From an uncultured Hyphomicrobiales bacterium (GTDB lineage: Bacteria; Pseudomonadota; Alphaproteobacteria; Rhizobiales; Xanthobacteraceae): DNA of 64,000 bases. The notes beneath the pieces are model-generated. The model was not told the DNA's origin. It made no database searches and saw nothing but the letters and a program-made list of their open reading frames with translations. The stretch lies in contig CAIRGJ010000047.1 in assembly GCA_903878085.1 (NCBI GenBank), forward strand, positions 62,001-126,000, in the 5' to 3' direction. Shown one piece after another: positions 17,994 to 47,829 of the stretch. Within the stretch, counting starts at the first letter, position 1, and each line of letters opens with the position of its first letter. Both the position numbers and the translations under genes were made by a program.

Positions 17994-18996
17994 CTACTGC
18001 GGCACTTCGATCTTCACCTGGCTGGTGATGGTTTCCCAGTGCTTCATCTCGCCGCCGAGCCAGGTCTGGGCTTCGGCCAGCGATTTGCTCGGTACGATGT
18101 TGAAGTTCTGCTTGTTGAGCTTCTCGACCGTCTGCGGATCTTTCAGCGTCTTGTTGATGGCGTCGAACAGCGCCTGCAGCACCGGTTTCGGCGTATCCGC
18201 CGAGGCGAACAACCCGTTCCAGGCGATGGTGCCGACGTCGGGGAAGCCTGCTTCTTTCATGGTCGGCACGTTGGGGTAGTCCGGCAACCGCTCGCGGGCG
18301 ACGATCGTCAGCGCACGGATTTTCCCCGCTTGCACCTGGCCGGCGGCGCTGGCGACGTTCATGAACGCGGTTTGGATGTCGCCGCGCAGCAGGTCCTGCA
18401 CCATGCCTGAGGCGCCGTTCTTGTTCGGCAGGTGGACCATGTCGAGGTCGCCCGCCTTTTTGGCGAAATAGGCCACGTCGTAATGCGGATAGGAGCCGAC
18501 GCCGACGCTGCCGTAGTGAATCTTGCCGGGATTTTTCTTGGCGTAGTCGATCAACTCGGGAAGGGGTCTTGATCGGGAAATCATTGGCCGTCGTCACCAC
18601 CAGGAATTCCGGCACGTCGATCAGATTGGTCACCGCGACCACGCTCTTGAGATAATCGGCCGACAACTTCTTGGGATACAGCACCGGCGTGATGGCATTG
18701 GTCGAGACGTTGCCGACCATCACAGTGTAGCCGTCGGGCGCGCCGTGGAGCAGTTCCTCGATCGCCAGCAAGCCGTAAGCGCCCGGCTTGTTGATCACCA
18801 GCATCGGCTGGCCGGTGATGCGCTGGAAGCCGTCGGAGATGATGCGCGCGGTAATGTCGGTGGCGCCGCCCGGCGCATAAGGCACCATGACCCGGACCGG
18901 CCGGTTCGGATATTTCTCCTGCGCCGATGCCGTCGCGATGGCGAACGACGCGGCAAAGCAGGCGGCGGACAGCAAGATATGGCCTAGACGCTTCAT
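17994..18996 (-). pseudogene. Bug-family (TctC-type) receptor interrupted by a +1 frameshift
   Basis: The N-terminal part, from an ATG at 18996 with an AGGAGGAT-type ribosome site, encodes a signal peptide and the Bug opening YPNRPVRVMVPYAPGGATDI. It continues through VVTTANDFPIKT. From about 18570 the reading continues in another frame (LPELIDYAKKNPGKIHYGSVG) and ends ...EVPQ at 17994. Removing one base from the four-C run (GGGG at 18563-18566 on the plus strand) restores one continuous receptor of about 333 residues. The unshifted frame would run on into the family B repeat and beyond. This is either a recent inactivating mutation or a sequencing error; the rest of the gene is intact. Confidence 0.85.
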
Positions 18997-20150: not shown

Positions 20151-20181
20151 TTCTCCGCTCATGCCCGCGAGTCCTCTTACT

Positions 20182-20297
20182 GTCATGCCCGGGCTTGACC
20201 CGGGCATCCATGACTTAGTTACGGCATCGAAGGTCATACGTAAGATTACCGACGGCGCGCCTGCTCATGGATTGCCGGGTCAAGCCCGGCAATGACA
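20182..20297. repeat. Pair of hairpins forming a larger inverted repeat (family D)
   Basis: A 9-bp stem ATGCCCGGG-CTTGA-CCCGGGCAT (20185-20207) is followed by a second 9-bp stem ATTGCCGGG-TCAAG-CCCGGCAAT (20271-20293). The loops are complementary (CTTGA / TCAAG), and flanking GTCATG / CAATGAC motifs frame the pair. A fragment of the same repeat (GTCATGCCCGGCAATGAC) recurs at 20810-20827, beyond the proposed RNA gene. It may end transcription of the CAP lipoprotein gene. Confidence 0.7.
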
Positions 20298-20340
20298 GCG
20301 GGGAGACTCGGCTCCTCAGGATGAGGCGGGTTAAAGGCTC

Positions 20341-20370
20341 TTGACAATAATCCACAACTAGGACTATATA
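20341..20370 (+). promoter_or_regulatory. Consensus-type housekeeping promoter
   Basis: A perfect -35 TTGACA (20341-20346) is separated by 18 nt from TATATA (20365-20370). The surroundings are unusually A/T-rich for this genome. The -10 region overlaps an inverted repeat ACTAG-N9-CTAGT (20357-20375), which could be an operator. No convincing protein frame follows; a strongly hairpin-rich GC stretch does. Confidence 0.65.
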
Positions 20371-20376
20371 CTAGTC

Positions 20377-20720
20377 GTCCTGCTCATCGAGGGCGCTCTC
20401 ATGAGGCGTCGTGATGGTGGAGCAGGGCGCGGCGCTCGCGGGCTTGGGGGTACGCACCCCGGGCTCCCGAGCGGGGCCGAAACCGCCCGGGTACACAAGG
20501 GTACCCTGCGAGGAGCTCGCTGACGGGATGTGGCCGGTGGCCTGCCCGAAAGCGCGGACCGGACCCTGGACAACGCCGCGATGGAGCGCCGAGAGGCGCC
20601 GCACACCCGGTCGGTGTGCGCACATAAGAAATGGATGCGCCGCTCGGTGCTCCATCCCCTCGGCTTTCGAGGGAAAAAACGAAGTCCGCCTACCCGGGGC
20701 GATAAAGAATGCGGGCGATG
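20377..20720 (+). ncRNA. Candidate structured non-coding RNA (about 340 nt)
   Basis: Downstream of the consensus promoter lies a stretch with closely spaced hairpins, five of them unbroken. The stems are GGGGT/ACCCC (20447-20460); GGGTAC/GTACCC with a 6-nt loop (20489-20506); GCGCC-GAGA-GGCGC with a GNRA tetraloop (20586-20599); an 8-bp stem CGCACACC/GGTGTGCG (20600-20620); a 10-bp stem ATGGA(T)GCGCC/GGTGCTCCAT with one bulge (20631-20655); and CCCTCG-GCTTT-CGAGGG (20657-20673). A Shine-Dalgarno-led protein frame is absent; the open frames here are Pro/Arg/Ser-rich shadows on both strands. It lacks the RNase P, tmRNA and 6S hallmarks I know. The 3' end is uncertain; the gap to 20834 continues without a gene. 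The identity is unknown. Confidence 0.5.
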
Positions 20721-20834
20721 ACGCTTGCCTACTCAAGTCTTGCCCACTCAAAGTCTTGGCTGTTTGAAAACTGAATCTGTGGCGGGAGCGCGCGCAACAA
20801 ACGCGGTGTCATGCCCGGCAATGACGGCAAGTTT

Positions 20835-21818
20835 CTAATTCGCCTTCGCGCCCGAGCTTTGGATCACCTCGGTCCACTTCTTGGTTTCGATCTTGAGCAT
20901 GACGCCGAATTTTGCACCGGACAAAGCGCCCGGCTCGGCGCCGAGTTCGCGATAGTGGGCAACGAGCGCCGGATTCTTCAGCGCCTTCTCGACCGCGGCG
21001 GTCAGCCGCGTCAGCACCGGCGCTGGCGTCTGCGAAGGTGCCACCAGGCCGAACCAGGCCTCGGCGTCGAAACCGGGCAATCCCGATTCCGCGACCGTCG
21101 GCACGTCGGGCAGCGACGCCGCGCGCTTGGCGCCGGCGACCGCGAGCGCTCGCACCGTGCCGGCTTTGACCTGCGGCAGCGCCGCCGGCATGTTGTCGAA
21201 CATCATCGGCACGTGGCCGCCGAGCAGATCGTTCATCGCCGGCGCAGCTCCTCGATAGGGCACGTGCACGATGTCGATATGCGCCATGCTCTTGAGCAAT
21301 TCGCCGGCCAGATGATTGGTCGAGCCGACGCCCGACGAGGCGTAGTTGATCTTGCCCGGCTCCTTCTTGGCCAGTGCGATCAGCTCCTTGACGTTGTTGG
21401 CGGCGACGCCCGGATGCACCATCAGCACGATCGGCACCGAGGCGACCAGCGCGATCGGCGCGAAATCCTTTTCCGGATCGAACGGCAGCTTGCCGTACAG
21501 CGCCGGGTTGATCGCCAGCGGGCCCGGCGCGGTCAGCAGCAGCGTGTAGCCATCGGCGGACGCGCGGGCGACCGACTCGGCGCCGGTATTGCCGCCGGCG
21601 CCGGCACGGTTCTCGACGATGAATTGCTGGCCGAGATCCTCCGACAGGCTCTGCGCCAGAATGCGCGCCAGCACGTCGTTCGAGCCGCCGGCCGGAAACG
21701 GCACAACGATGCGGACGGGGCGGTCGGGATATGTCTGCGCAGTGGATGGCTGCACGAATGCGGCGACAGCGAGCGCGGCCATGCCAAGCATCAATACAGC
21801 GCGTTTGGAAACAGCCAT
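20835..21818 (-). CDS. Bug-family (TctC-type) periplasmic solute receptor
   Basis: From an ATG at 21818 (GGGGGA site just upstream) the product is 327 residues, with a signal peptide ending ...PSTAQ at about 27. The Bug opening YPDRPVRIVVPFPAGGSNDV follows. Later blocks include GGNTGAESVARASADGYTLL and INYASSGVGSTNHLAGELL. It is the third Bug receptor in 8 kb and, like the others, has no tctA/tctB partner nearby. It is divergent from an acyl-CoA synthetase gene about 110 nt away, so it may import a carboxylate that the synthetase activates (inference). The 23 residues upstream of the chosen start are Arg-rich and unlike a signal. Confidence 0.92.
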   Translation of the reverse strand: MAVSKRAVLMLGMAALAVAAFVQPSTAQTYPDRPVRIVVPFPAGGSNDVLARILAQSLSEDLGQQFIVENRAGAGGNTGAESVARASADGYTLLLTAPGPLAINPALYGKLPFDPEKDFAPIALVASVPIVLMVHPGVAANNVKELIALAKKEPGKINYASSGVGSTNHLAGELLKSMAHIDIVHVPYRGAAPAMNDLLGGHVPMMFDNMPAALPQVKAGTVRALAVAGAKRAASLPDVPTVAESGLPGFDAEAWFGLVAPSQTPAPVLTRLTAAVEKALKNPALVAHYRELGAEPGALSGAKFGVMLKIETKKWTEVIQSSGAKAN

Positions 21819-47744: not shown

Positions 47745-47829
47745 GCCCCTGTGGCGGAATTGGTAGACGCGCCTGACTCAAAATCAGGTACCGCAAGGTG
47801 TGCTGGTTCGAGTCCGGCCAGGGGCACCA
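47745..47829 (+). tRNA. tRNA-Leu, anticodon CAA
   Basis: An 85-nt cloverleaf. The acceptor GCCCCTG pairs with CAGGGGC before A-CCA, and the CCA end is encoded. The anticodon stem CCTGA / TCAGG encloses loop CTCAAAA with anticodon CAA, which reads UUG codons. A long variable arm (TACCGCAAGGTGT) and the TTCGAGT T-loop fit a class II leucine tRNA. It lies 36 nt upstream of dsbB. Confidence 0.96.

Follow-up and report, generated by a model that had tools for sequence, protein, structure and literature searches.

A large folded RNA gene is dispersed in some two dozen copies over the genome of a soil bacterium of the genus Pseudolabrys (Hyphomicrobiales), and most copies carry a promoter of their own. 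One copy of this dispersed family lies at 20341–20724 of the window, by which we mean the whole stretch of 64,000 nucleotides that was analysed, and comprises a promoter and a structured RNA of approximately 350 nt. An initial annotation had proposed a candidate structured RNA behind a promoter at this place, and its main point is borne out by the fold, by covariation and by the conserved promoter position. There is good support for a family of structured RNA genes in which the promoter position is conserved and evolution is partly concerted, and the family is probably transcribed. Our best reading is a free-standing RNA gene family that would act in trans (probability approximately 0.6).

The element extends from approximately 20339 to 20724, perhaps to 20777, and is flanked by convergent genes for a CAP-like protein (end 20150) and a TctC-like protein (end near 20835), names that were read from the translations. 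Its plus-strand promoter (20341–20370) is the one annotated initially, with TTGACA at 20341–20346, an 18-nt spacer, TATATA at 20365–20370 and a TCC...GGA inverted repeat reaching the -10 box, and its position is conserved across the family. It is missing from the list of an automatic promoter scan, as the scan demands a T at the last -10 position. Among 158 copies with 55 nt of upstream sequence, 106 have an exact TTGAC, which in 105 of these sits 33–36 nt before the RNA start; TTATCC is found instead in 21 copies and neither sequence in 31. One promoter variant is present at 12 sites in five genomes, each of them upstream of a family copy. The promoter of the window copy is of the housekeeping type and would start transcription near 20376. 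The inverted repeat over the -10 box, taken earlier as a sign of regulation, is a family feature only in part: WTCCYA stands in the spacer of 67 of the 106 TTGAC copies, and the full repeat TCCYA...AGG[AT] is present in 17 of them, compared with 0.2 in shuffles. Other copies (L236, L243, L245, L258, L030, L035) have, in place of the TTGAC promoter, a second type of 5' sequence, TTATCCCCGC, and near the -10 position a stretch that is TTA-rich or resembles TATA.

The stretch folds at -191.5 kcal/mol compared with -165.3 kcal/mol for shuffled sequences (z -4.24), and none of 100 shuffles was as good. The predicted fold of the RNA opens with a 5' hairpin and a branched domain, continues through two short hairpins to a central domain, and closes with a long 3' helix followed by a pseudoknot; all features given here are on the plus strand. 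Base pairs were counted in three alignments: A1, from which the structure came; A2, with 38 copies of the 3' domain; and A4, with 92 model matches (87 distinct rows) fitted to the covariance model R1, at least 17 copies of which are also in A1. For R1, 44 of a set of 53 diverse copies supplied the 5' domain; A2 was drawn from the same 53, and R1 matches the window at 20376–20523. The predicted 5' end of the RNA and hairpin P1 (CCTGCTC/GAGCAGG), with an inner helix GGCGC.../...GGCGTC, occupy 20376–20429, and 8 of the 10 outer P1 pairs changed on both sides in A4. That the inner helix (GGCGCT/GGCGTC) hardly varies in A4 is uninformative, because the A4 loci were fetched by the sequence of this helix. 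The P2 domain with its covarying apical hairpin follows at 20430–20476, both sides having changed in 5 of 9 pairs of helix 3 and 8 of 8 pairs of helix 4. Next come the hairpins GGGTACACAAGGGTACCC (20489–20506; helix 5, 98.0% of cells paired) and GCGAGGAGCTCGC (20508–20520; helix 6, 98.3%), in each of which all five pairs changed on both sides. The central domain (20524–20580), with pairing assigned by eye and uncounted, is homogeneous among copies of its own genome, at an identity of 0.84–0.98 in nine full type A copies.

In the 3' part, a long helix (20581–20599 with 20637–20655) and its apical hairpin (20600–20620) span 20581–20655. The helix has 18 pairs in A2, with 98.5% of cells paired and 5 pairs changed on both sides, and it covaries at alignment columns 1, 5 and 11–13. 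The apical hairpin had been annotated as an 8-bp stem, and other copies, compared by eye, retain it with substitutions. Two other annotated stems give way to the long helix: a 10-bp bulged stem at 20631–20655 is incompatible with it, and a GNRA hairpin at 20586–20599 cannot form alongside it. The bases of the GNRA hairpin hardly vary, so this hairpin may be a passing alternative to the long helix. Further downstream lie the hairpin CCCTCG GCTTT CGAGGG (20657–20673; compared by eye among copies, pairs uncounted) and an H-type pseudoknot (20687–20715), in which 20687–20690 pair with 20698–20701 and CCCG (20693–20696) with CGGG (20712–20715). The second pseudoknot stem is 98.0% paired in A2 and the first 84.1% paired in an imperfect alignment; one pair is G-C in 19 of 38 rows and C-G in 18, which could go back to few events. 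Three repeats of the same genome (L051, L052, L054) share only this 3' pseudoknot end, behind a different 5' sequence. A terminal mini-hairpin, GCGATGACGC (20715–20724, by eye), forms the 3' edge common to the copies, and beyond it lies an optional motif, TTGGCTGTTTGAAAACTGAATC (20756–20777). With up to four errors, GCTGTTTGAAAATTGAATC was found in the 120-nt 3' flanks of 19 of 67 copies compared with 0.05 in shuffled flanks, and GGCTGTTTGA was seen by eye 3' of some copies in other genera. Support from covariation is good for the 5' domain and for the long helix and moderate for the pseudoknot, and the remaining parts were assigned by eye.

Compensatory changes go beyond shuffled and slid controls, as taken to mark a structured RNA. 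RNAalifold placed 43 pairs on A1, 20 of them changed on both sides, and 22 pairs on A2, with 6 changed on both sides. Over the 87 distinct rows of A4, 96.2% of cells are paired and both partners changed in 31 of 43 pairs; A4 has a covariation score of 0.400 (reached by 0 of 500 shuffles), compared with 0.157 after shuffling and 0.058–0.095 after sliding. A2 including the pseudoknot scores 0.244 compared with 0.110 shuffled, again reached by 0 of 500; on two further measures of A2, 22 and 10 of the 500 shuffles did as well, a point against the reading. Mutations that break the stems had been named at the outset as evidence against the RNA; they compensate instead. No frame is open in more than 12 of 67 full copies, in agreement with the annotated non-coding character, and in pairwise comparison of 40 of these copies 13% of indels are divisible by three. 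A protein-coding gene was rejected, as no conserved open frame was found in the 67 copies.

The wobble cells in variable pairs of A4 are 305 G·U and 27 A·C, a count that omits two G·U pairs, both invariant, in the helix by which the loci were fetched, and in which G·U is somewhat favoured, as the structure was predicted on the promoter strand. The promoter strand is therefore the structured strand. This bears on the alternative of a DNA-level repeat of the REP type, serving as binding site, cruciform or terminator and not as RNA. Even though the multi-copy, intergenic habit fits such a repeat and a REP-like repeat adjoins the element at 20163–20306, the strand asymmetry, albeit counted on the strand used for prediction, and a pseudoknot and promoter at fixed distance make this reading extremely improbable. 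A REP element in the sense of a short palindrome acting as DNA was likewise rejected, given the multi-domain fold of approximately 350 nt and the strand-specific wobble cells. The adjoining repeat, TGTCATGCCCGGGCTTGACCCGGGCATCCATG and its mirror at 20163–20306, is a separate REP-like inverted repeat that is also dispersed in its own genome. Elsewhere in the window, a TctC-like gene at 17994–18996 (minus strand) is split into two frames and is possibly a pseudogene or an assembly error.

The initial annotation had excluded RNase P, tmRNA, 6S and SRP RNA by their motifs, and no Rfam 15 family matches the element at gathering score. The sole Rfam 15 match in the window is a tRNA at 47745–47826, and 20 loci with near and distant copies gave 0 matches. 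Rfam identities at loose thresholds were rejected as chance-level matches. No paper was recognised as describing this RNA in the literature searched, the scope of which fell short of most subscription journals.

Within its own genome (G000) the element has 40 blastn matches at E ≤ 0.001, many of them at contig ends, and 33 of 60 relatives have a blastn match. R1 has 24 matches in this genome, 17 in the single-contig genome G004 and 13 in the single-contig genome G011. Conservation outside close strains, an early check on the annotation, was found: with filters that were stricter here and in the order and class samples, and that lose weak matches, R1 matches 36 of 43 congeners, 15 of them with 10–24 matches each. 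The other 7 congeners have no R1 match, four of them being at least 90% complete, and hence the family is not essential to the genus. Among 297 genomes sampled from the order, 11 have matches, representing 10 of 123 genera (in both cases including its own), and among 385 genomes sampled from the class there is no match except in its own. Scanning a contig collection with one exact pattern gave at least 110 stretches, the matches listed being from Pseudolabrys, Pseudorhodoplanes, Tardiphaga, Rhodopseudomonas, Bradyrhizobiaceae and unclassified Hyphomicrobiales, as well as from records labelled Rhizobium sp. Q54, the genomes of which fall in the genus of the window. An Actinoplanes match (L176) is presumably due to chance. 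Of the 110 listed loci 91 entered the model search; the 19 left out were duplicates of collected copies, one 99-nt stretch (L125) and the Actinoplanes match. An isolate, Pseudolabrys sp. Root1462, carries the RNA family. Plasmid and phage collections gave no family match, and viral contigs gave 0 matches to one exact pattern. A truncated copy of the 5' domain (L045:1376–1550) lies upstream of a gene that reads, by eye, like rpsB.

The surroundings of the copies bear on whether the element is a cis-acting leader, attenuator or insulator of neighbouring genes. After removal of duplicates and of matches under 120 nt, 184 matches left 160 unique copies. They are mostly intergenic (147 overlap no called gene and 13 do), the median distance to the next gene being 144.5 nt on the 5' side and 202 nt on the 3' side, and some copies end, by eye, just before a start codon (L030, L103), all of which would suit a cis-acting element. 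However, the orientations of neighbours are near-equal (17 ++, 15 -+, 14 +- and 11 -- among 57 copies with both neighbours called), no Pfam family matches more than 3 of 95 promoter-side neighbours, and the window copy sits between convergent genes, so that a cis-acting role is very unlikely. Because neither its neighbours nor its orientation are fixed and it lacks a reading frame, we infer that action in trans is the most likely mode of this RNA, which would work as a ribonucleoprotein scaffold or as a dosage-dependent regulator.

In 4 of 20 loci from ten distant genomes the promoter-side protein is a UG13a reverse transcriptase, a PNP-nSTAND protein, a C5 methyltransferase or an AAA_21 ATPase (L265, L266, L267 and L275; ten proteins picked by eye). 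PADLOC gave no family with more than 3 members at E ≤ 1e-15 among the 95 promoter-side neighbours (30 families in all), and at most 2 members per family (5 families) among 75 control proteins drawn from 251. No general enrichment of defence genes beside the copies was found in these 95 neighbours, a weak test in that the gene caller was trained on the window and missed three of the four genes above.

The copies evolve partly in concert. Of 129 copies, 77 have their closest relative within their own genome, compared with 6.0 expected, and 52 have it elsewhere. Nine copies of G000, chosen as full type A with type B left out, which raises identity within the genome, are 0.84–0.99 identical in the core (20471–20600) but only 0.43–0.63 in the promoter and 0.19–0.34 in the flanks, and between species the core is 0.49–0.85 identical (13 copies, 12 genomes). 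A uniform core between divergent promoters and flanks is the pattern of gene conversion, and on this identity profile we attribute the uniformity of the core to recombination. Many loci would thus make the same RNA, recombination between copies would keep the transcribed core uniform within a genome, and each locus would keep its own promoter despite homogenisation of the core. Flanking proteins define 21 groups of shared location, by an automatic grouping that may merge unrelated places. When 216 comparisons were made with the counterpart at the shared position, a copy from the same genome proved closer in 94; in the other 122 none was closer, and homogenisation is therefore partial. The place before an acyl-CoA synthetase gene has a copy in the orientation of the gene in at least 9 of 43 genomes (G000, G002, G023, G024, G029, G031, G035, G062 and G065, read by eye from the listed matches); the copy of G031 is truncated, and in the window the TctC-like gene lies between. 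At this place G066 has approximately 24 bp between the flanking matches, but its site is too diverged to mark the exact boundary of an insertion, and other genes were inserted here.

The main rival of a trans-acting RNA is a selfish, non-autonomous mobile element, kept by its own copying, whose RNA helps its spread through an unrecognised enzyme. One genome has 24 model matches, and the family's copies are randomly oriented to their neighbours; many copies in random orientation, which count against the trans-acting reading, fit a selfish repeat as well. So do the clustering of copies by genome (77 of 129), the patchy presence in the order sample, where 10 of 123 genera including its own have matches, and the frequent coincidence of contig ends with copies. 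A published pipeline sorts motifs that are multi-copy and inconsistently oriented among its mobile or repeat candidates (PMC11109978). Direct repeats across the ends of 52 copies reach at least 7 nt in 33% compared with 21% of mismatched controls, and at least 8 nt in 13% compared with 7%, but this excess is small. The same 52 copies lack the terminal inverted repeat of a MITE, with 5.2 nt compared with 5.4 nt in shuffles.

The mobilising proteins sought were reverse transcriptase, TnpB, RRXRR and Y1 transposase. Reverse transcriptase is absent from G000 and present in 12 of 43 genomes, and a retron, DGR or group II element was rejected on its absence from G000. TnpB is over the cut-off in 0 of 43 genomes (3 below it), which likewise argues against an omega RNA of TnpB. 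RRXRR (IscB) was found in 0 of 43 genomes, though the positive control also gave no match, and Y1 transposase in none of the G000 proteins and over the cut-off in 4 of 43 genomes. Positions are shared between species, and near-identical cores stand behind different promoters, an arrangement not produced by whole-element transposition. Weighing both sides, we regard a selfish element as unlikely, and the trans-acting RNA gene family remains our preferred reading.

Among known RNAs, the Soda Lake RNA (smtA motif, HRC-65-1) is similarly large (>350 nt), complex and covarying, narrowly distributed among bacteria and of unknown function; it is confined to Thioalkalivibrio and was found beside smtA (PMC11109978). 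The present family belongs to the Hyphomicrobiales, lacks a fixed neighbour and has 10–24 model matches in 15 of 43 congeners. It may be identical with the Rhizobiales-1 motif, a candidate RNA from the same order that is tabulated without an Rfam accession (PMC2864571). Like OLE, GOLLD and ROOL, large ornate RNAs (PMC12286853), it is a large folded bacterial RNA. Unlike them, it matches no Rfam family at gathering score. To our knowledge, OLE, GOLLD and ROOL are not dispersed multi-copy families. HEARO and the omega RNAs of IscB and TnpB are structured RNAs linked to dispersed elements, and a pseudoknot near the 3' edge recalls the TnpB RNAs, but Rfam scans gave no HEARO match and none of the 43 genomes has TnpB over the cut-off. 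rRNA and other multi-copy RNA genes have their own promoters, dispersed loci and homogenisation within genomes. The family shares all three features with rRNA genes and differs in having no match in 7 of 43 congeners and in being restricted to a lineage and of unknown function.

Few large ornate RNAs are known from bacteria, and for most of them the function is open. We put slightly less than even odds on the family being a large bacterial RNA of a new, trans-acting class, which in many genomes would be made from 10–24 dispersed loci evolving in concert much like rRNA genes, and would scaffold an undescribed ribonucleoprotein of the Hyphomicrobiales. The many copies per genome and the carrier isolate Root1462 make expression, partners and loss testable. 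Concerted evolution of RNA loci that are dispersed but show no recognised mobility would be unusual for bacteria.
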